From a virus, in the IMG/VR virus record IMGVR_UViG_3300032050_000478, positions 1-33,534 of that record: DNA of 33,534 nt; one strand, given 5' to 3'. Of the stretch, positions 11,439 through 33,534 are shown in pieces. The position numbers and the translations under genes are program-made. Every line of letters starts with the position of its first letter. The stretch's first letter is position 1. Below the pieces are notes generated by a model. The model ran no database searches and was not told where the DNA came from. It was given only the letters and a program-made list of their open reading frames with translations.

Positions 11439-11969
11439 ATGTATTATATTGAGGAACGATTTGCAATGAATAAACGTAATTTTATCATACAAGAAATGTA
11501 TCTCAGTACCGATATAGGCGATGCCATCGGTAAGATGCAGCCAAGGGAATTACAGGATGACCTTCGGCAAGAGGTCTTTCTTGTGCTTTGTGAAATGGAT
11601 GAGGCGAAGCTATTTGAGATGTACGACCAAGGATATCTAAGATACTTTATTGTTCGAACCATCTTGAACATGGCTAAGAGTGATAGAAGTAACTTTTACA
11701 AAAAATTCAGACAGGTATATCAGGAAATACCTTTAACCTACGAAGTAAAGAAGGAAGATTATGATGAGGGGTTAATGAACAAACTCGAAAAGGGATTAGA
11801 GGTACTGCATTGGTATGAAGCGGAACTGTTAAAGCTATATGCTAATAACGGAAAGAATTTATTGGCGATTAGTAGAGAAACCAAGATACCTTATCGGTCC
11901 CTAATCAAAACAATACGTAAAGCAAAGATTTTGATGAAATACAAAATAAGAAACTATGCAGATAATTGA
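11439..11969 (+). CDS. Phage sigma-70-family-like transcription factor
   Basis: A 176-residue protein with a region-2-like segment (DDLRQEVFLVLCEM..., then LRYFIVRTILNMAKSDRSNFYKKFR, about residues 40-92) and a C-terminal helix-turn-helix (LLAISRETKIPYRSLIKTIRKAK, about 141-163) like sigma region 4. Similar small sigma-like proteins occur in Bacteroidetes phages. It is the first rightward gene after the repeat-rich control region, an ideal place for a factor switching on late genes. ATG at 11439 has AAGAGGA a few bases upstream, one of the few SD-like sites; ATG at 11466 is an alternative start. DNA specificity is unknown. Confidence 0.65.
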   Translation: MYYIEERFAMNKRNFIIQEMYLSTDIGDAIGKMQPRELQDDLRQEVFLVLCEMDEAKLFEMYDQGYLRYFIVRTILNMAKSDRSNFYKKFRQVYQEIPLTYEVKKEDYDEGLMNKLEKGLEVLHWYEAELLKLYANNGKNLLAISRETKIPYRSLIKTIRKAKILMKYKIRNYADN

Positions 11970-12213: not shown

Positions 12214-12469
12214 TTTTTGCAATCAACACATTATCAACTTTGAGTCGGTAAAACTCGGCTTCACTCGTAACATTCCCTTTGATGTACTCGGAGAATACGA
12301 AAGAATGTACCGGGATTATTTAGATAGGCAATTCGTTTTAACCTATTGGTGTGGCGAGTGTGTTTTTGATATGCTCAAAAGAATTATAGTGGTTTTTGAA
12401 CAATCGATTGTGCAAAATAATGTACAACCTGATGTACAACCTAAAAAAAGAGGCAGACCAAAAAAATGA
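12194..12469 (+). CDS. Hypothetical protein with C-terminal AT-hook-like tail
   Basis: A 91-residue protein with helical body, a CGEC motif (residues 53-56, in TYWCGECVFDMLKRI), and a tail ending KKRGRPKK. The RGRP core is the AT-hook that binds the minor groove of AT-rich DNA. Both ends overlap neighbours; the stop overlaps the glycosyltransferase start (ATGA). It may be a small DNA-binding adaptor in the accessory block, but the body was not recognised. Confidence 0.6.
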   Translation: MNQKDIDFCNQHIINFESVKLGFTRNIPFDVLGEYERMYRDYLDRQFVLTYWCGECVFDMLKRIIVVFEQSIVQNNVQPDVQPKKRGRPKK

Positions 12470-13473
12470 GATTACTAATACTTACAACTCAGAACTCCGG
12501 TGTAGGGTATCATAGGTTAATGCTACCTATTTACTACTTAGAGAAAACCTATGCCTATTTTACCGATGTGCTTACCGATGAGGTACTAAAGGAGAACTTT
12601 GATATTGTTCTATTCAACCGCTTTATTCCGGGAGTTCAGTTAGAAACTTTATTAGAGAAAAGAAAAGAGTACGGCTTTAAGATGATTTGCGACATCGATG
12701 ATTATTGGATATTGGATAGTTCACATATCCTATATTCAGTTTATCCTACGCAAGAGATACTCAACCACATACAAGCTGCCGACTTAGTTACCTGCACGAA
12801 CGAAAGGTTATGGAATGCCATTAGGCCTTACAATTCTAACGTAACTATCCTACCGAATGCTTTGCCTTATGGTAACGACCAATTCACAGATGTAAGGGAG
12901 TACACCGATAAGGTTAAGTTTGTCTATACAGGTTCTATAACACACGAAGAAGATATTAAGTTGGTTCAGTTTCCTTTTAAGAGGGTTGCCTCAGATATGA
13001 ACCTAAGAAACAAAGTACACTTTCAATTGTGTGGCTTTGATGATAGGGGAGAAGGCTCAGCACATATCTGGCACAGGATGATTTCTAATTTTACTTGTGG
13101 GTTAAAGTTAGGGGATGTCAGAAGGTTTCTCCCAGTAACGGAGTATATGAATTTTTACAACGATGCGGATTGTTCTATCGTTCCGTTAAGGGCAACGAGG
13201 TTTAACTCAATGAAATCAAACCTTAAACTCTTAGAGGCAGCAAGTAAGAAGATACCTGTTATTGGTAGCCATGTTGAACCCTACTTAAATTCTCCGATGA
13301 TACCTGTTAATTATCAAGGGGATTGGTATCGTGAGATTAAAAAAGTAACCGAAGATGCTATTTATAGGCAAGAGAAGGGTTTGGAATTGTTCGACTGGGC
13401 GGTAACAAACTTTAATCTTTTTAAGGTAAATGAAATAAGAAAACAACTATATCTAAATTTGAATGGTCGTTGA
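12466..13473 (+). CDS. GT-B fold glycosyltransferase (GT4-like)
   Basis: A 335-residue protein with two Rossmann-like halves. The first has LLILTTQNSGVGYHR at the start, DIDDYW at 76-81, DLVTCTNERL (106-115) and ILPNALP (128-134). The second starts KFVYTGSITHEED and contains EYMNFYNDADCSIVPL and the region LKLLEAASKKIPVIGS that in GT4 enzymes holds the nucleotide-sugar site. Glycosyltransferases of this kind in phages modify DNA bases, virion proteins or host surfaces. Two further glycosyltransferase-like genes, an acyltransferase, a ParB-like protein and a dioxygenase follow, favouring a modification cassette. The acceptor cannot be told from sequence. Confidence 0.8.
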   Translation: MRLLILTTQNSGVGYHRLMLPIYYLEKTYAYFTDVLTDEVLKENFDIVLFNRFIPGVQLETLLEKRKEYGFKMICDIDDYWILDSSHILYSVYPTQEILNHIQAADLVTCTNERLWNAIRPYNSNVTILPNALPYGNDQFTDVREYTDKVKFVYTGSITHEEDIKLVQFPFKRVASDMNLRNKVHFQLCGFDDRGEGSAHIWHRMISNFTCGLKLGDVRRFLPVTEYMNFYNDADCSIVPLRATRFNSMKSNLKLLEAASKKIPVIGSHVEPYLNSPMIPVNYQGDWYREIKKVTEDAIYRQEKGLELFDWAVTNFNLFKVNEIRKQLYLNLNGR

Positions 13474-13476
13474 GTT

Positions 13477-13599
13477 ATGGCTAAATCTGGAACTATTGGA
13501 AAGCAAACATTTGGGAAGCGAAGAAAAGGAAAATCTCATAAGAAGCATAATAAACACAATCGAAAGGAAAGAAACTATCGAGGACAAGGGAGAGTTTGA
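13477..13599 (+). CDS. 40-residue highly basic protein
   Basis: MAKSGTIGKQTFGKRRKGKS followed by HKKHNKHNRKERNYRGQGRV. Nearly half of the residues are Lys, Arg or His. It sits in a gap between the glycosyltransferase and the acyltransferase, three bases after the former's stop. Small proteins of this composition are seen in Bacteroidetes phages and resemble ribosomal-protein tails. A nucleic-acid binding role is plausible, nothing more can be said. Confidence 0.65.
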   Translation: MAKSGTIGKQTFGKRRKGKSHKKHNKHNRKERNYRGQGRV

Positions 13600-13626
13600 G
13601 ATTAACTATCTAAAGCTAATGAACTA

Positions 13627-14100
13627 ATGATACACCCAACTGCAATAATCTACCCGAATGTAATCATCGAACCCGGTGTTTACATAGGACCTTATTGCAT
13701 AATAGGGGCTCCGGCTGAATGGAAAGGTTATGAGCATCACGAAGGATTAGTAACGATAATGTCAGGGGCGAGATTAACCGGGATGGTAACGGTAGATAGT
13801 GGAACGATTAGGAGAACGATTATTAGTGCTGGTTGTTATTTAATGAAGCACAGCCACGTTGGGCACGATGCTATTTTGTGTGAGAATGTTACGTTGAGTT
13901 GTGGAGCAAAAGTCGGTGGGCATACGATAGTAGAAAAGAATTGTAACATTGGATTAAATGCGGTCTTACATCAAAAGATAAGAATACCAGAAGGGTGTAT
14001 GATAGGTGCTTCGGCTTTTGTCGGAAAGAAATCTGTCTTACAACCCTTTCATAAATACGCTGGAGTACCTGTAAAAGAAATCGGAGAAAATGCTCGTTAA
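13627..14100 (+). CDS. LpxA-like left-handed beta-helix acyltransferase
   Basis: A 157-residue protein made of hexapeptide repeats from IHPTAIIYPNVIIEPGVYIG through SCGAKVGGHTIVEKNCNIG to MIGASAFVGKKSVL, ending PVKEIG. It resembles the LpxA/ acyl-ACP or acetyl-CoA O/N-acyltransferases. The His residues in MKHSHVGHDA are positioned as in LpxA catalytic sites. In phages these enzymes can acylate sugars on nucleotides, virions or host LPS. The start at 13627 follows the 40-residue gene by 27 bases. It fits a sugar-tailoring step next to three glycosyltransferases. Confidence 0.8.
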   Translation: MIHPTAIIYPNVIIEPGVYIGPYCIIGAPAEWKGYEHHEGLVTIMSGARLTGMVTVDSGTIRRTIISAGCYLMKHSHVGHDAILCENVTLSCGAKVGGHTIVEKNCNIGLNAVLHQKIRIPEGCMIGASAFVGKKSVLQPFHKYAGVPVKEIGENAR

Positions 14101-14710
14101 TATTATCTTATTAAACTACGAACGCAAGCAACACACCCAAAGGGTTAAGAATGTAAACTTCTCGAATGCAGGTTTTAACTTTGACTTTATAGAGGTTGAA
14201 ATGAAAGGGATAGCCAGAGCCATAAACTACGGAATAAGTAGAAGCTATCAATACGATGCGATAGTAACAATGGCTAATGATATTTTAATGCCTGAGAATT
14301 GGCTGCAAAGAATGGTAGAGGCTGCCTATGCTATACCTAATACAGGAATGTGCGGTATTCATTGCGTAGAAATGTTAGGAGAGAGAACTTACATAAACGA
14401 TATCCCAATTCATAAAGCCGATGCGGTGTTTGGGAATGTCTTAATCCCTATGCAAGCCATCGAGAAGATAGGAAAGTTCAACGAGGTGTACGACCCTTAT
14501 GGAATGCAGGATAGTGATTACTCTTTTAGATTAAAGCAAACAGGACATTTGAATTACTACTTAGGTGGGTTAACCGCTGAGCATATCGGACACGATGTCG
14601 GCCAAGATACCCCTTATAGAAAAATGAAGGATGAGGGGTTAAGTAAGTGTGATAAACTATGGGCACAGGAAACCGCTAAATATCAATCAACAAATAATTA
14701 CAAAATATGA
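14090..14710 (+). CDS. GT-A fold glycosyltransferase (GT2-like)
   Basis: A 206-residue protein with a GT2-type start (LVNIILLNYERKQHTQ), an internal AIVTMANDILMPENWL segment (about 57-72) where MAND stands in the place of the usual DxD, a donor/acceptor loop around DAVFGNVLIPMQAIEKIGKF, and the typical GMQDSDYSFRLKQTGH (E/D-x-D-x-x-x-R). It overlaps the acyltransferase by 11 bases. Many phage GT2-like enzymes look like this. The altered DxD (ND) could mean different metal use or reduced activity. Confidence 0.75.
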   Translation: MLVNIILLNYERKQHTQRVKNVNFSNAGFNFDFIEVEMKGIARAINYGISRSYQYDAIVTMANDILMPENWLQRMVEAAYAIPNTGMCGIHCVEMLGERTYINDIPIHKADAVFGNVLIPMQAIEKIGKFNEVYDPYGMQDSDYSFRLKQTGHLNYYLGGLTAEHIGHDVGQDTPYRKMKDEGLSKCDKLWAQETAKYQSTNNYKI

Positions 14711-15288
14711 AAGCACAAAAAGTTTCTATTGGTAAAATCAAGTTAAACCCAAGTAATCCGAGAATTATCAAAGATGATAAGTTTCAAAAACTTGTTAAGA
14801 GTATACAAGATTTTCCCGAGATGAAAGAGGTACGACCTATTGTTGTGAACGAAGATATGGTAATCTTAGGTGGCAATATGCGTTTTCGAGCAATGCAAGA
14901 AGCAGGAGTAAAAGAAGTTCCTGTCGTTGTTGTAGATTGGAACGAAGAAAAGCAAAAAGAGTTTACCATAAAAGATAATTTGAGCTTTGGCGAATGGGAT
15001 TGGGATGCCTTAGCGAATGATTGGAATATTGAAGCGTTAAGAGATTGGGGAGTTGATGTTCCTAGTTTTAATATAGATTTAATTGAGCCGGAGATAGATA
15101 CAACTCGTTTAGGTGAGAATATGGATAAGTATATAAACAATTCTATTAAACAAATTGTTTTATATTATGATACCGAAAAATTTGAACAAATGTTAAACGA
15201 TTTAGATAAAATTGCCAATGAAAAAGGCTTTGAAGATAATAGTGAAGTAGTTCAATACCTAGTAGAACAATTCAAGAAAAATGTTTAA
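14707..15288 (+). CDS. ParB-like N-terminal domain protein
   Basis: A 193-residue protein with a ParB/Srx-type N-terminal domain: VSIGKIKLNPSNPRI, a helix with FQKLVKSIQDFPEM, IVVNEDMVILGGNMRFRAMQ (GGNMRFRA at 55-62) and EVPVVVVDWNEE. ParB-like phage proteins of this type bind CTP or act as nucleases or methylation-linked factors and often lie beside terminase and DNA-modification genes. The rest lacks a ParB DNA-binding helix-turn-helix. It follows the glycosyltransferase with a four-base overlap. It could target modification enzymes to DNA; that is inference. Confidence 0.8.
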   Translation: MKAQKVSIGKIKLNPSNPRIIKDDKFQKLVKSIQDFPEMKEVRPIVVNEDMVILGGNMRFRAMQEAGVKEVPVVVVDWNEEKQKEFTIKDNLSFGEWDWDALANDWNIEALRDWGVDVPSFNIDLIEPEIDTTRLGENMDKYINNSIKQIVLYYDTEKFEQMLNDLDKIANEKGFEDNSEVVQYLVEQFKKNV

Positions 15289-16183
15289 GAATAGATTATT
15301 CTATCTAAGTAATAGCGATTATGGTGGTTGGGTATCTTTTACCTATCATTTGGCTAATTTATTACAGGAAGATAGTGTTATTAAAATTAAGCCTACATTG
15401 AAAGGTGGAGGTACATTCTACGGGAATGTCAGATATTTTAATGTACCGAAGGAAGTTATTAAGAAATTCGAGCAGCCTATAATTACTGCGGTAGATAAAG
15501 CGCATTATCAATATCTGAGATTATTCAAGAATCCTATTATTGTTATTCACGACCCAACGGAGCTATCTGAGGAAATGCTACAAATAGCTAAAACAAATAA
15601 AGTAATTACGATAAGGGAAAGCGTTCATAATTTACTACTGTCCTTAGGTATTAACAATCAATTCCTCAAACACCCTTTCTATAAGTATAAAAAGGAGAAA
15701 GGAAATAACGCAATTAATAGGTCATTGTCTAGAGTAGACTTTGATAAGAATACCCATATAATTTGCAAAGCTAATAACCTAGGAGCAGGAATAGAAATCT
15801 ATGGTTACAAAAATCATATTTATTACTTCCATAAATTAAAAGAATTAGGTTTCGATAGCCAATATAAAGGGTATTATTCTAAAAAGATTAATGATATATC
15901 AAGTTTATACGCTAATACAAAATACTTAGTTGACCTATCTACTATAAAGCAAGATGGCGGTGGAACACAATATACGTTTTTGGAAGCAGAATATCATCAT
16001 TGCGGTTTGATATTGCATAAAGATTGGTGTAATGTTCCTAATAGTGTTTATCGAAACGGTGAAAATTGCCACACGATAGCCGATGAGCACGAATTACTAG
16101 AAGCAATAAATAAACCTATTCTAAAAAGCAACCTCGTTCCTACGGAAGAAGAAAACAATAAATGGATAAAACTATGCAAGTAA
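15281..16183 (+). CDS. Glycosyltransferase-like protein (third)
   Basis: A 300-residue protein with the layout of a GT-B enzyme. The N-terminal part has DYGGWVSFTYHLANLL and PIIVIHDPTELS; the C-terminal nucleotide-sugar half contains YLVDLSTIKQDGGGTQYTFLEA (about 215-236), followed by HKDWCNVPNSVY and HELLEAI. The GGGTQYTFLEA loop matches phage GT-B proteins of this class. It overlaps the dioxygenase gene by 22 bases and the ParB-like gene by eight. Substrate unknown; likely part of the same cassette. Confidence 0.65.
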   Translation: MFKNRLFYLSNSDYGGWVSFTYHLANLLQEDSVIKIKPTLKGGGTFYGNVRYFNVPKEVIKKFEQPIITAVDKAHYQYLRLFKNPIIVIHDPTELSEEMLQIAKTNKVITIRESVHNLLLSLGINNQFLKHPFYKYKKEKGNNAINRSLSRVDFDKNTHIICKANNLGAGIEIYGYKNHIYYFHKLKELGFDSQYKGYYSKKINDISSLYANTKYLVDLSTIKQDGGGTQYTFLEAEYHHCGLILHKDWCNVPNSVYRNGENCHTIADEHELLEAINKPILKSNLVPTEEENNKWIKLCK

Positions 16184-17076
16184 TTGAGATTCAACCAAAA
16201 GAAATAGACATAGCTAGTTTCAAAAAAAGAACTGCTTTGGATAGCGACGCAGAACACTTAATAAAAGAAGATACTGTTATTACTACTAATGGAGTTCCTG
16301 TTATTATGTACTGCAAAATTAAAGAAAATTTAGACGCATTGCGTTGGTCAGTATGTAGTATTCCTTATTCAAAGTCTGATAGAACTGGAGGATTGGTTAC
16401 ACAAAGTGCTATCTTCGGGTATAAGCCGAAAATATCTATGCGTTCAGATTTTTGTAGCGCAACGGCTATGGCTAGAACCTATCCAAAACAACACTATGTA
16501 ATAACTGAATTTGCTAAAAATCTTACCAATTACTATAACGAACACTTCCCCGAAGTATTTTCGAAACATACCGAAATCGTAGAACATAAGGTAAAAAAAG
16601 ATTGGGTAATAGATGGCTCACCTTTTACATCAGGTATTGTTAATAAAGATAACCCCTTGAAATACCACTTCGATGCAGGAAACTTCAAAGGCGTTCTTTC
16701 AAATATGGTAGCCTTTAAAAAAAATATTATTGGTGGCAGACTAATAATTCCTGCATATAACATTAAATTAGAAATTCAAGATGGTAGTTTATCGGTATTC
16801 GATGGGCAAAGTATTCTTCACGGAGTTAGTCCCTTTGAAAAAACTAATGAAGACGCTTATCGTTATACGATAGTTTACTACACATTAGAACAAATGTGGA
16901 AGTGTGAAACAATTACCGATGAGCTTATTAGGATAAGGAAAAAGAAAAAGGAACGTGAGTTTAATAGGCTTAATCCTGAGCATATGGAAAAGCTAAAAGA
17001 AATTAAATCTAATATAGATAAAAAAGTTCAAAAGGAACTCGTAAACCATATCAAACAACGAGAAAACAATGGCTAA
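16162..17076 (+). CDS. TET/JBP-like 2-oxoglutarate Fe(II) dioxygenase
   Basis: A 304-residue protein whose C-terminal half is a double-stranded beta-helix oxygenase. HFDAGN supplies His169 and Asp171, GGRLIIPAYNI is a strand pair, DGQSILHGVSPF gives His220 as the third iron ligand, and YRYTIVYY gives Arg234 for 2-oxoglutarate. This arrangement fits the TET/JBP group that oxidises 5-methylpyrimidines in DNA (5mC or thymine). A Lys/Glu-rich helical tail (252-304) follows. The N-terminal 150 residues are not recognised. The start is 16162 or 16174. It lies beside ParB-like and glycosyltransferase genes, and terminase follows, as described for phage DNA-modification operons. Closely related oxygenases act on other targets, so the substrate is inferred. 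Confidence 0.75.
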   Translation: MDKTMQVIEIQPKEIDIASFKKRTALDSDAEHLIKEDTVITTNGVPVIMYCKIKENLDALRWSVCSIPYSKSDRTGGLVTQSAIFGYKPKISMRSDFCSATAMARTYPKQHYVITEFAKNLTNYYNEHFPEVFSKHTEIVEHKVKKDWVIDGSPFTSGIVNKDNPLKYHFDAGNFKGVLSNMVAFKKNIIGGRLIIPAYNIKLEIQDGSLSVFDGQSILHGVSPFEKTNEDAYRYTIVYYTLEQMWKCETITDELIRIRKKKKEREFNRLNPEHMEKLKEIKSNIDKKVQKELVNHIKQRENNG

Positions 17077-17440
17077 TGCAAATAATTTAGTTGGTAAAGG
17101 TTTTGACGCTCACCCTGAGAGAATTAACAGGAACGGCAGACCAAGGAAGTACACAAGCCTCTTACGTGAGGAAGGCTATCGCCTATCAGAAATTAACGAT
17201 ACGATACAGGCTATGATGCAGATGACGATTGAAGAATTAAAGGAAGTTTGGGAAAACCCCGAGGCTACTATCCTAGAAAAGACTATCGCCAACGCAATGC
17301 GTAAAAGCCTTGAAAAAGGCTCTCTTTATTCTATGGAAACATTGCTTACTCGAGTATACGGAAAGCCTAAAGAAACGCAGCAGGTAAGCTCTGATAGCAA
17401 AATAGAAGTAGTGTTCGTTAATGGCAAGACTATATTATGA
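17069..17440 (+). CDS. terS: Terminase small subunit-like protein
   Basis: A 123-residue helical protein with an N-terminal NRNGRPRKY basic patch and a helical middle (EELKEVWENPEATILEKTIANAMRKSL), ending in YGKPKETQQV and a short strand. This resembles small terminase or DUF5681-type proteins that lie directly upstream of the large subunit and bind pac/cos DNA. Stop overlaps the large-subunit start (ATGA). It starts eight bases inside the dioxygenase gene. Recognition site is not visible. Confidence 0.75.
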   Translation: MANANNLVGKGFDAHPERINRNGRPRKYTSLLREEGYRLSEINDTIQAMMQMTIEELKEVWENPEATILEKTIANAMRKSLEKGSLYSMETLLTRVYGKPKETQQVSSDSKIEVVFVNGKTIL

Positions 17441-18588
17441 AGATTGAACTACCTAATCCTCATATTAATCAATCCGCAATCCTAGAATCTAAAGCTAGGT
17501 TTCGGGTTGTTATGGCAGGAAGAAGGTTCGGTAAGTCAGAATTAAGCCAAATAGAAATAATAGTTAATGCTTTACAAGGCAAGCAGGTATTTTATGTTAC
17601 CCCTACCTACAATCTGGCTCGTGTATTCTTTGACCAATTAGCCAAGGCAGTACCTTTTGAAGCTAACAAATCGGAACTATCAATCAAGTTCCCAAATGGC
17701 GGTGCGGTTTACTTTTTTACAGGCGAACGCTTAGACAACCTCAGAGGTCGCAAGTTTCATTTCGGGGTTATAGATGAAGCATCGTTTATACCTGATTTAG
17801 AAAATGGATGGCTCAATTCAATCCGACCTACCTTAACCGATTACAAGGGTAAAGCTTTATTCATCTCCACACCTAAAGGCAAGAACTTCTTTTATTCTTT
17901 ATTCCTTAAGAACGGAGAACCCGATTGGGAGAGTTTTAAATTCACTACCTATGACAATCCGCATATTGATAAAACCGAAATAGACGATGCCCGAACCCAA
18001 TTACCTGAGGTAGTATTCGAACAAGAGTATATGGCAAACCCGGCTGAAAATGCCGCTAATCCTTTCGGCAGTATCTACATCAAGCAATGTACATTTGGAT
18101 TGACTAATGAGCCTCCTATTGCGTTTGGGGTAGACTTGGCGAAGTCGGTTGACTATACTGTTATTATCGGCTTAGATAAGAACGGCTCTGTTTGTTACTT
18201 TGACAGGTTTCAAAAGGATTGGAGACAGACAAAGCAAGTCATATCTCAGTTACCTAAAGTACCGACTCTGATTGATAGCACCGGAGCCGGAGACCCTATC
18301 TTCGAAGATTTACAAAGGGATGGTTTACCTGTTAGTGGTTTTAAGTTCAGTTCAACCTCTAAGCAGCAACTTATGGAAGGATTGGCATCAGCTATCCAAC
18401 AAAGAAAGATTACATTCCCCGAAGGGCATATCACTCAGGAACTTGAAATCTTTGAGTATCAATACACCGCTACTGGAGTTCGCTATTCAGCACCGCAAGG
18501 CTTCCACGATGACTGCGTGATGGCTTTAGGATTGGCTTGGCATCACTATATCAGAAATCAAGCACAAGGCAAGTATTCGTTCGCATAA
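17437..18588 (+). CDS. terL: Terminase large subunit
   Basis: A 383-residue packaging ATPase-nuclease. Walker A AGRRFGKS (27-34), Walker B GVIDEAS (110-116), motif III FISTPKG (142-148), and nuclease residues Asp233 (GVDLAKS), Asp280 (LIDSTGAGD) and Asp358/Asp359 (FHDDCVMAL). The protein cuts and pumps DNA into proheads, with the small subunit upstream. Its length is short for a terminase but all core motifs are present. The downstream gene is preceded by the CTATTTAGT leader rather than overlapping. Confidence 0.92.
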   Translation: MKIELPNPHINQSAILESKARFRVVMAGRRFGKSELSQIEIIVNALQGKQVFYVTPTYNLARVFFDQLAKAVPFEANKSELSIKFPNGGAVYFFTGERLDNLRGRKFHFGVIDEASFIPDLENGWLNSIRPTLTDYKGKALFISTPKGKNFFYSLFLKNGEPDWESFKFTTYDNPHIDKTEIDDARTQLPEVVFEQEYMANPAENAANPFGSIYIKQCTFGLTNEPPIAFGVDLAKSVDYTVIIGLDKNGSVCYFDRFQKDWRQTKQVISQLPKVPTLIDSTGAGDPIFEDLQRDGLPVSGFKFSSTSKQQLMEGLASAIQQRKITFPEGHITQELEIFEYQYTATGVRYSAPQGFHDDCVMALGLAWHHYIRNQAQGKYSFA

Positions 18589-31962: not shown

Positions 31963-33534
31963 ATGGCTAACAAGAAAATATCCGAATTACAGAGTAGAAC
32001 CCCGAGTTTAAGTGATTTATTATTAGTGGGGGACCCTTCTTCGGGTTATTCGTATAAGTGTACAGTTACGGATTTAGCGACTATCATTGAAACAGATATT
32101 GCTGATGGCTATGTAACTATTGGTACGACCCAAACAATTAGTGGAGCAAAGACCTTCTCTAATAACTTGACGTTAACGAGCGTATCCAATGCGAACACAG
32201 ATACGGATAAATTTTTGGTTCTCAATGCTTCTAATATAGTAAACTTTAGAACCGGGGCCGAGGTGTTGAGTGATATTGGCGGTCAGGGTGCTTTGACTTT
32301 AACGACAACAGGTTCAAGCGGTGCTTCGACATTAGTGGGGAATACGTTGAACATTCCTACTTATACTCTCTCAGGATTGGGTGGTATATCGGGTTCTGGA
32401 AGTACTGGCTACTTACCAAAGTTTACAGGTACGACTTCTATTGGTAACTCTATTGTTCAAGATAACGGAAGTACATTAAACATTGCAGGGGGAATAATTT
32501 GTAACGCAATTTCTGCTTCAAGTTTAACCTCTGACCAATATATAGCATTTCAAAATATAAACACATCGTATTCTCTTTCGGGATATACTATGTTATATGC
32601 TACATTGACTAACCCTGGTTTTATTTTTAATTTCGGGGATGGTACAAGGAGTGCTATTTTCCGTTATGCTGCTGGAAGCTATACTTATACGTTGCCGAGT
32701 GCAACAGGTACGTTAGCTTTGACTTCGGATATTACAAATTCGGTATCTGGAACGATTGGTTTTATTGCTAAGTTTACAGGCACAGGTTCAGTAGGAATAA
32801 GCCAAATTTATGAAAGTGGCACGAGTATCGGTATAGGTACAACTTCCCCAAGCGGTAAAACTGAAATATCTGGCTCTGCAAGTGGTAGTACATTTGTAGC
32901 ATTAAATTTAAGAAATATTGATGAGGTTGTGGGAAGTGATGCTTCTATGTATTTTTCAACTGGAAGTGGTGCATTAGCTTCTACTAATATCACAGGTTTA
33001 ATTCGTTCTTCAGTAACACAGGCTAACCCAAGTGCATTAAAAGGAAATCTCAAATTTTATGTAAATAGTGGAGATAATATTATCGAAGGAATGCAGCTTG
33101 ATACTTCGGGAAATCTTGGCTTAGGAGTAACACCAAGTGCGTGGAGTGGAGTTAAAGCCTTACAAATAGGTTCTGATGTATCAGGTCTTTCATTGTTTGG
33201 GTATAGTGGTACTGGGGCTGAAATTGGCTCAAATACTTGGTTTAATGGTACTAACTATATCTATGGAACAACTGCTGCATCTACAAGATATGTTTTAAGT
33301 GGTGGACAACATAGGTGGTATATCGCACCTTCAGGCACAGCTGGTAACGCCATATCCTTTACACAAGCTATGACCTTGGATGCTTCGGGAAGACTTGGTA
33401 TAGGTACAACTTCCCCGACAAACAAATTAACAGTAGTTGGCGGTAATGGTAATCAATTATTATTAAACAATACAGGTGAAAGATATACTCAATTAACCTT
33501 TGATTATAATAGTTCAGGTACTACTAAAGGTGCT
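31963..33534 (+). CDS. Tail fibre, N-terminal part (runs off the window; continues at 1)
   Basis: The open frame starts at ATG 31963 and has no stop to the end of the window. It begins MANKKISELQSRTPSLSDLL and continues with many Thr/Ser/Gly-rich repeats and SGSGSTGYLPKF-type segments. Joined at base 33375 to base 1, it reads 471 plus 322 residues in one frame (793 total). N-terminal residues attach to the virion; the repeats form the shaft; the C-terminal S74 domain is in the fragment at 1-969. A 20-bp repeat, GGTATAGGTACAACTTCCCC (32830 and 33398), recurs within the gene, with a one-base variant at 22-41. Confidence 0.9.
   Translation, partial: MANKKISELQSRTPSLSDLLLVGDPSSGYSYKCTVTDLATIIETDIADGYVTIGTTQTISGAKTFSNNLTLTSVSNANTDTDKFLVLNASNIVNFRTGAEVLSDIGGQGALTLTTTGSSGASTLVGNTLNIPTYTLSGLGGISGSGSTGYLPKFTGTTSIGNSIVQDNGSTLNIAGGIICNAISASSLTSDQYIAFQNINTSYSLSGYTMLYATLTNPGFIFNFGDGTRSAIFRYAAGSYTYTLPSATGTLALTSDITNSVSGTIGFIAKFTGTGSVGISQIYESGTSIGIGTTSPSGKTEISGSASGSTFVALNLRNIDEVVGSDASMYFSTGSGALASTNITGLIRSSVTQANPSALKGNLKFYVNSGDNIIEGMQLDTSGNLGLGVTPSAWSGVKALQIGSDVSGLSLFGYSGTGAEIGSNTWFNGTNYIYGTTAASTRYVLSGGQHRWYIAPSGTAGNAISFTQAMTLDASGRLGIGTTSPTNKLTVVGGNGNQLLLNNTGERYTQLTFDYNSSGTTKGA
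33376..33534. repeat. Right copy of terminal direct repeat (circular overlap)
   Basis: Copy of bases 1-159, differing only at 33408 (A versus G at 33). See the left copy. The difference falls inside the 20-bp fibre repeat (33398-33417). Confidence 0.9.

Follow-up and report, generated by a model that had tools for sequence, protein, structure and literature searches.

Six genes ahead of the terminase

The window, meaning the whole stretch of DNA that we analyzed, is a freshwater virus record of 33,534 bases (IMGVR_UViG_3300032050_000478). It carries six head-to-tail genes ahead of the terminase genes, all on the + strand, with neighboring open reading frames (ORFs) that overlap or nearly abut. 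The six genes of a first-pass annotation of this DNA were all present where it had placed them, and the genes for the small and large terminase subunits come next:

12466..13473, +, GT-B glycosyltransferase, backbone (PHROG 7162, phrog_7162, glycosyltransferase, E 1.3e-59)
13627..14100, +, LpxA/NeuD-like hexapeptide acyltransferase, backbone (Pfam Hexapep, 9.5e-17; PDB 8e62, 9.5e-41)
14090..14710, +, GT-A glycosyltransferase, backbone and left border of the slot (Glycos_transf_2, 5.9e-5, 23.5 bits against a cut-off of 23.3)
14707..15288, +, ParB-like protein of 193 aa with an N-terminal domain of ParB/Srx fold (Pfam ParB_N, 7.1e-11)
15281..16183, +, GT-B of an unnamed family, 300 aa (AlphaFold model and Foldseek)
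16162..17076, likely start 16174, +, TET/JBP Fe(II)/2-oxoglutarate oxygenase (Tet_JBP, 2.5e-11, 43.5 bits against a cut-off of 34.9)
17069..17440, +, probable terminase small subunit, marking the slot's right border (assigned from its position ahead of TerL and its conservation there)
17437..18588, +, terminase large subunit (Terminase_6N, 2.7e-15)

The first 159 bases of the window match the last 159 at 158 of 159 positions, and one tail-fiber ORF of about 846 codons spans the join. Since the ends repeat and a single ORF crosses them, the window probably represents a whole genome of about 33.4 kb in circularly permuted form. The alternative is a tandem repeat within the fiber gene, which would explain the matching ends and also place both of them in one gene. 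A Bacteroidota host is likely because the nearest terminases in genomes, at 63-66% identity, sit in Chitinophagaceae (Pollutibacter soli and the MAG UBA8137). The host is inferred; a Bacteroidota-type promoter pattern had one match in the window against 2.3 expected and none in the cassette operon.

The oxygenase belongs to the TET/JBP family

The iron and 2-oxoglutarate residues quoted in the first-pass annotation are correct: His169, Asp171 and His220 (the HxD...H iron triad) and the 2-oxoglutarate arginine, Arg234, are invariant in all 31 sequences of the alignment, which reaches as low as 23% identity. The AlphaFold model of the oxygenase has a pLDDT of 93.2. When we made the fold comparison with TET/JBP that the same annotation had proposed, the 26 top PDB matches were all TET family proteins (NgTET1, TET2, CcTet and CMD1; NgTET1 at 9.9e-13), mostly 5-methylcytosine (5mC) enzymes, and AlkB/FTO proteins came next, far behind, at E values of 7e-8 or weaker. 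By sequence, a search of the PDB with the TET profile gave CMD1, at 0.006, as the sole relevant match, and a scan of genome contigs with the TET alignment found no relative. By Pfam, invariant residues and predicted fold, this protein is a true TET/JBP family member, predicted to oxidize a 5-methylpyrimidine in DNA. The name "queuine tRNA-ribosyltransferase" that PHROG and RefSeq give to these TETs (phrog_6059) is a misannotation, as both fold and Pfam give TET. Translation probably starts at Met5 (16174), where close relatives begin.

A GT-B of an unnamed family accompanies TET

The glycosyltransferase immediately upstream, at 15281-16183, has no match in Pfam, PHROG or NCBIfam, and none among 50,697 phage records. 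Since a PDB profile search also found nothing, we took its fold from AlphaFold and Foldseek. The model is of moderate quality (pLDDT 76, pTM 0.77, with a weak stretch at 152-181), and at an E value of 0.001 or better it retrieved 41 PDB structures, the great majority of them GT-B enzymes. Leading these are GT4-type transferases of a general kind, for surface glycans or metabolites, the best being 7qsg at 8.1e-8; phage T4 beta-glucosyltransferase (T4 BGT) stands at rank 36, at 5.7e-4. BFVD holds one closer phage homologue, an uncharacterized protein with 27% identity (2.8e-16). A GT-B fold is thus predicted, and the protein is expected to decorate a hydroxymethyl base. It occupies the position between ParB and TET that TAGT holds elsewhere. 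Relatives carry proteins there that match the TAGT model (PF20691); this one, with 0 Pfam families, does not.

Among the three glycosyltransferases of the block, this third one alone tracks TET. Its relatives of about 50% identity or more all have a TET as neighbor, and a ParB too wherever DNA on that side is available. The one exception among the family's loci is a 42% relative (L305) that has no TET or ParB in reach and adjoins a capsule-type glycosyltransferase, so membership of the family does not by itself imply a role on DNA. The TET partners of the family fall into two clades, 23-29% identical to each other, and the association therefore persists when the TET is a different one. The order is reversed in a few loci, with TET ahead of the GT-B.

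The block splits into a backbone and a cassette

The first-pass annotation had joined all three glycosyltransferases and the acyltransferase with TET and ParB in a single cassette. The per-gene scans, which covered about 280 loci, several of them on the same contigs, do not bear this out. TET is absent from 67 of the 72 distinct segments running from GT-A to the terminase, and 27 contain no recognized DNA-modification gene; nearly all retain the GT-B at 12466 and the acyltransferase upstream. Viewed from the other side, 37 distinct TET loci have at least 2.8 kb of DNA upstream of ParB. Only one of these, identical to the window, carries the GT-A and the acyltransferase, and 10 carry a relative of the GT-B at 12466. 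Because the genes at 12466-14710 are kept in segments lacking TET, and the GT-A and acyltransferase are nearly absent from TET loci, the three form a backbone module, and 14707-17076 alone is the base-modification cassette. The gene-neighborhood comparison thus upheld part of the earlier picture: the ParB, glycosyltransferase and TET set recurs in related phages, while the other two glycosyltransferases and the acyltransferase separate from it.

The acyltransferase belongs to the backbone, and the acylated base that had been suggested is not supported. Among solved structures the acyltransferase comes closest to a UDP-GlcNAc acyltransferase (8e62), with NeuD-type enzymes also close, and its relatives also occur without the other genes, in contigs of more than 100 kb. 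The backbone module probably serves a surface or virion glycan. The first-pass annotation had offered surface or virion sugars as its alternative; this is the better fit for the GT-B at 12466, the acyltransferase and the GT-A, and it does not extend to the third glycosyltransferase, which follows TET.

One slot holds several DNA-modification sets

In sister phages, the slot between GT-A and the small terminase gene varies in content. The 72 distinct segments, drawn from the best 80 per search and not to be read as population frequencies, contain:

ParB fused to N6/N4 methyltransferase, 20
ParB with Mom, 10
ParB alone, 7
ParB with ABC/GNAT protein, 3
ParB-GT-B-TET, 2
ParB-TAGT-TET, 2
ParB-FkbM-TET, 1
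none recognized (this class and "ParB alone" may conceal unrecognized genes), 27

One ParB family thus recurs in relatives, either ahead of TET, Mom or ABC/GNAT genes or in fusion with an N6/N4 methyltransferase. Whatever their partner, most slot ParBs share about 60-65% identity with the window's ParB domain. On the ParB tree, which has few columns and many unresolved forks, partner labels are clustered, yet they change 13 times where 4 is the least possible, and strict co-inheritance of ParB and its partner is ruled out.

The order ParB-X-TET-terminase is conserved. ParB lies upstream in 77 of 77 distinct TETs with upstream DNA available, nearly always with at least one gene between and usually with one; the tally wrongly scores a few ORFs, whose starts are extended, as having no intervening gene. 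The gene between is TAGT in at least 34 of the 77 and a member of the window's GT-B family in at least 13. The rest are ADDT (amino-acid:DNA transferase), FkbM (a methyltransferase) or unclassified ORFs of 160-312 aa. One related locus (L286) has ParB-TAGT without TET. Cultured phages of actinobacterial and cyanobacterial hosts keep the ParB-TET order, with the terminase next in many: ParB-TET-TerS-TerL in phage Nigel, ParB-TET-TAGT in Altadena, ParB-TET-ADDT in Rhodococcus phage Tonitrus and ParB-(FkbM)-TET-TerL in Prochlorococcus phages MED4-184 and MED4-117. Altadena, an Arthrobacter phage, also has a deacetylase after TAGT, and the cultured Nonlabens phage P12024L carries TET-TAGT.

The ParB-like protein itself has a ParB_N domain with the P-motif arginine (GGNMRFRA), and its best PDB matches are ParB CTPase domains. 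In Pfam, ParB_N alone passes; an HTH domain is lacking, as is a full partition-family score (TIGR00180, 29.7 bits against 58.45).

Proposed mechanism and alternatives

The first-pass annotation had grouped the TET/JBP oxygenase with glycosyltransferase and ParB-like genes. Base oxidation followed by decoration is still the best reading of that arrangement, as a prediction. We consider it likely that ParB, GT-B and TET act together as follows. Once the phage DNA has been replicated, TET would hydroxylate a 5-methylpyrimidine in it at the methyl group, most likely converting thymine to 5-hydroxymethyluracil. As when base J is made, the slot GT-B would then put a sugar on that hydroxyl. The ParB-like protein may be a nucleotide-gated DNA-binding partner that recruits the modification enzymes to the phage genome just ahead of packaging, and the modified genome would be shielded from host nucleases. 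This reading is supported by the slot's other contents, which are DNA-modification enzymes.

The substrate is probably the methyl group of thymine, as in base J. We favor it over 5mC made by the phage because a search for C5-methyltransferases (PF00145) found none in the window genome. Of 50 TET records, a set that includes many fragments, only one has such an enzyme above the curated cut-off, with a sub-threshold match in one more. The authors of the Tonitrus study likewise read its ParB-TET-ADDT genes as thymidine hypermodification (PMC11955845). The same cassette could instead act on 5mC supplied by the host or by another enzyme, giving sugar-decorated 5hmC. In its favor, the closest structures to the oxygenase are mostly 5mC enzymes, one of the 50 TET records does have a C5-methyltransferase, and PMC12730594 cites a characterized phage TET that acts on cytosine and, from Burke 2021, phages with a C5-methyltransferase, TET and glycosyltransferases. 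We find this version rather improbable: PF00145 is absent from an apparently complete genome, and dependence on host methylation would leave the decoration sparse and host dependent.

It is unlikely that the slot GT-B acts on a glycan or virion protein, leaving TET to work alone or with an unlinked partner. The GT4-type enzymes at the head of its Foldseek matches and the capsule-type neighbor of L305 point in that direction; the constant company of TET among its closer relatives, and its place in the position of TAGT and ADDT, point away from it. A single six-gene pathway for a large glycosylated and acylated base is more improbable still. The genes are neighbors on one strand and mostly overlap, but the gene distribution described above, with a GT-A or acyltransferase in 1 of 37 TET loci and the backbone retained where TET is missing, largely refutes it.

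A broader role of ParB can be proposed tentatively, with well under even confidence. ParB would be a shared nucleotide-gated adaptor that loads unrelated modifiers (TET with its decorator, Mom, N6/N4 methyltransferase, ABC/GNAT) onto phage DNA near the terminase genes, and the gene between ParB and TET would choose the decoration: a sugar by GT-A or GT-B, an amino acid, or a methyl group by FkbM.

Comparison with known systems

Iyer in 2013 and Burke in 2021 are said to have described phage TET/JBP-glycosyltransferase hypermodification systems linked to TAGT. The window resembles such systems in its TET/JBP oxygenase, adjacent glycosyltransferase, ParB-like partner and following terminase, and differs in having an unrelated, unnamed GT-B for TAGT and no C5-methyltransferase; this lack also sets it apart from cytosine hypermodification by C5-methyltransferase, TET and glycosyltransferase. 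With the kinetoplastid base J pathway (JBP and a glucosyltransferase) it shares an oxygenase and a glycosyltransferase, and a cytosine methyltransferase would be unneeded if thymine is the substrate. Unlike that pathway, the system here is viral, its transferase has a predicted GT-B fold, and its substrate is inferred. In the Tonitrus set (PMC11955845), ParB is likewise followed by TET, and a relative of the window (L009) has ADDT between the two, whereas Tonitrus has an amino-acid transferase and a kinase where the window has a glycosyltransferase. Phage ParB-N6/N4 methyltransferase fusions have already been described (PMC12704722); they share the ParB family and, in sister phages, the slot, but the ParB of the window is a separate protein whose partners are TET and a glycosyltransferase. 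The kind of system is known, its chemistry here is predicted, and what differs is a GT-B of an unnamed family in the TAGT position.

Paired with phage TETs and absent from the searched family libraries, this GT-B family is a candidate new DNA-sugar enzyme. The FkbM-TET version is present in cultured phages, Prochlorococcus MED4-184 and MED4-117. A literature search, mostly outside subscription journals, found no paper that brings TET, Mom and methyltransferase together at a single slot with a common ParB. At this slot, close relatives swap no fewer than four unrelated sets of DNA-modification enzymes while the ParB family stays constant, and this diversity makes the role of ParB in these operons a testable question. 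If the adaptor reading is true, the chemistry of phage DNA would change by gene swap behind one constant loader.

Genome ends and upstream gene

Comparison of the two ends of the window showed that positions 1-159 and 33376-33534 are identical at 158 of 159 bases. The record is classed as linear. This end repeat lies inside a single tail-fibre ORF (31963-33534 joined to 1-969), and the window probably represents the whole of a circularly permuted genome about 33.4 kb long. One gene is kept 5′ of TET cassettes and non-TET cassettes alike:

Window 11439-11969: conserved protein, 176 aa

Its product matched no Pfam family and, by eye, looks like a sigma-factor-type helix-turn-helix protein.

Gene content of related cassettes

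The TET/JBP oxygenases are labelled "queuine tRNA-ribosyltransferase" in phrog_6059 and many phage records (NC_011044.1 gp2 is one example), evidently a propagated error.

In a Chitinophagaceae MAG (UBA8137; L286:8871-9605), the slot holds ParB and TAGT without TET. Nonlabens phage P12024L, a cultured marine phage of Bacteroidota, has adjoining TET, TAGT, and N6/N4 methyltransferase genes (L307:4728-6993), with no ParB annotated beside them. At L305:4989-5936, a protein distantly related to the slot GT-B (42% identity) adjoins a capsule-type glycosyltransferase; neither TET nor ParB was found within the DNA examined around it.

In the DNA-modification slot of two related loci, ParB is paired with a protein that combines an ABC/AAA-type ATPase domain with a GNAT domain and is 358-366 aa long:

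L114:7145-8245: ATPase-GNAT partner
L136:7129-8205: ATPase-GNAT partner

Elsewhere, an FkbM-type methyltransferase has ParB on one side and TET on the other, an arrangement that cultured cyanophages also have:

L121:1693-2388: FkbM-type methyltransferase
L306:4261-4962: FkbM-type methyltransferase, Prochlorococcus phage MED4-184

This enzyme might O-methylate a hydroxymethyl base.
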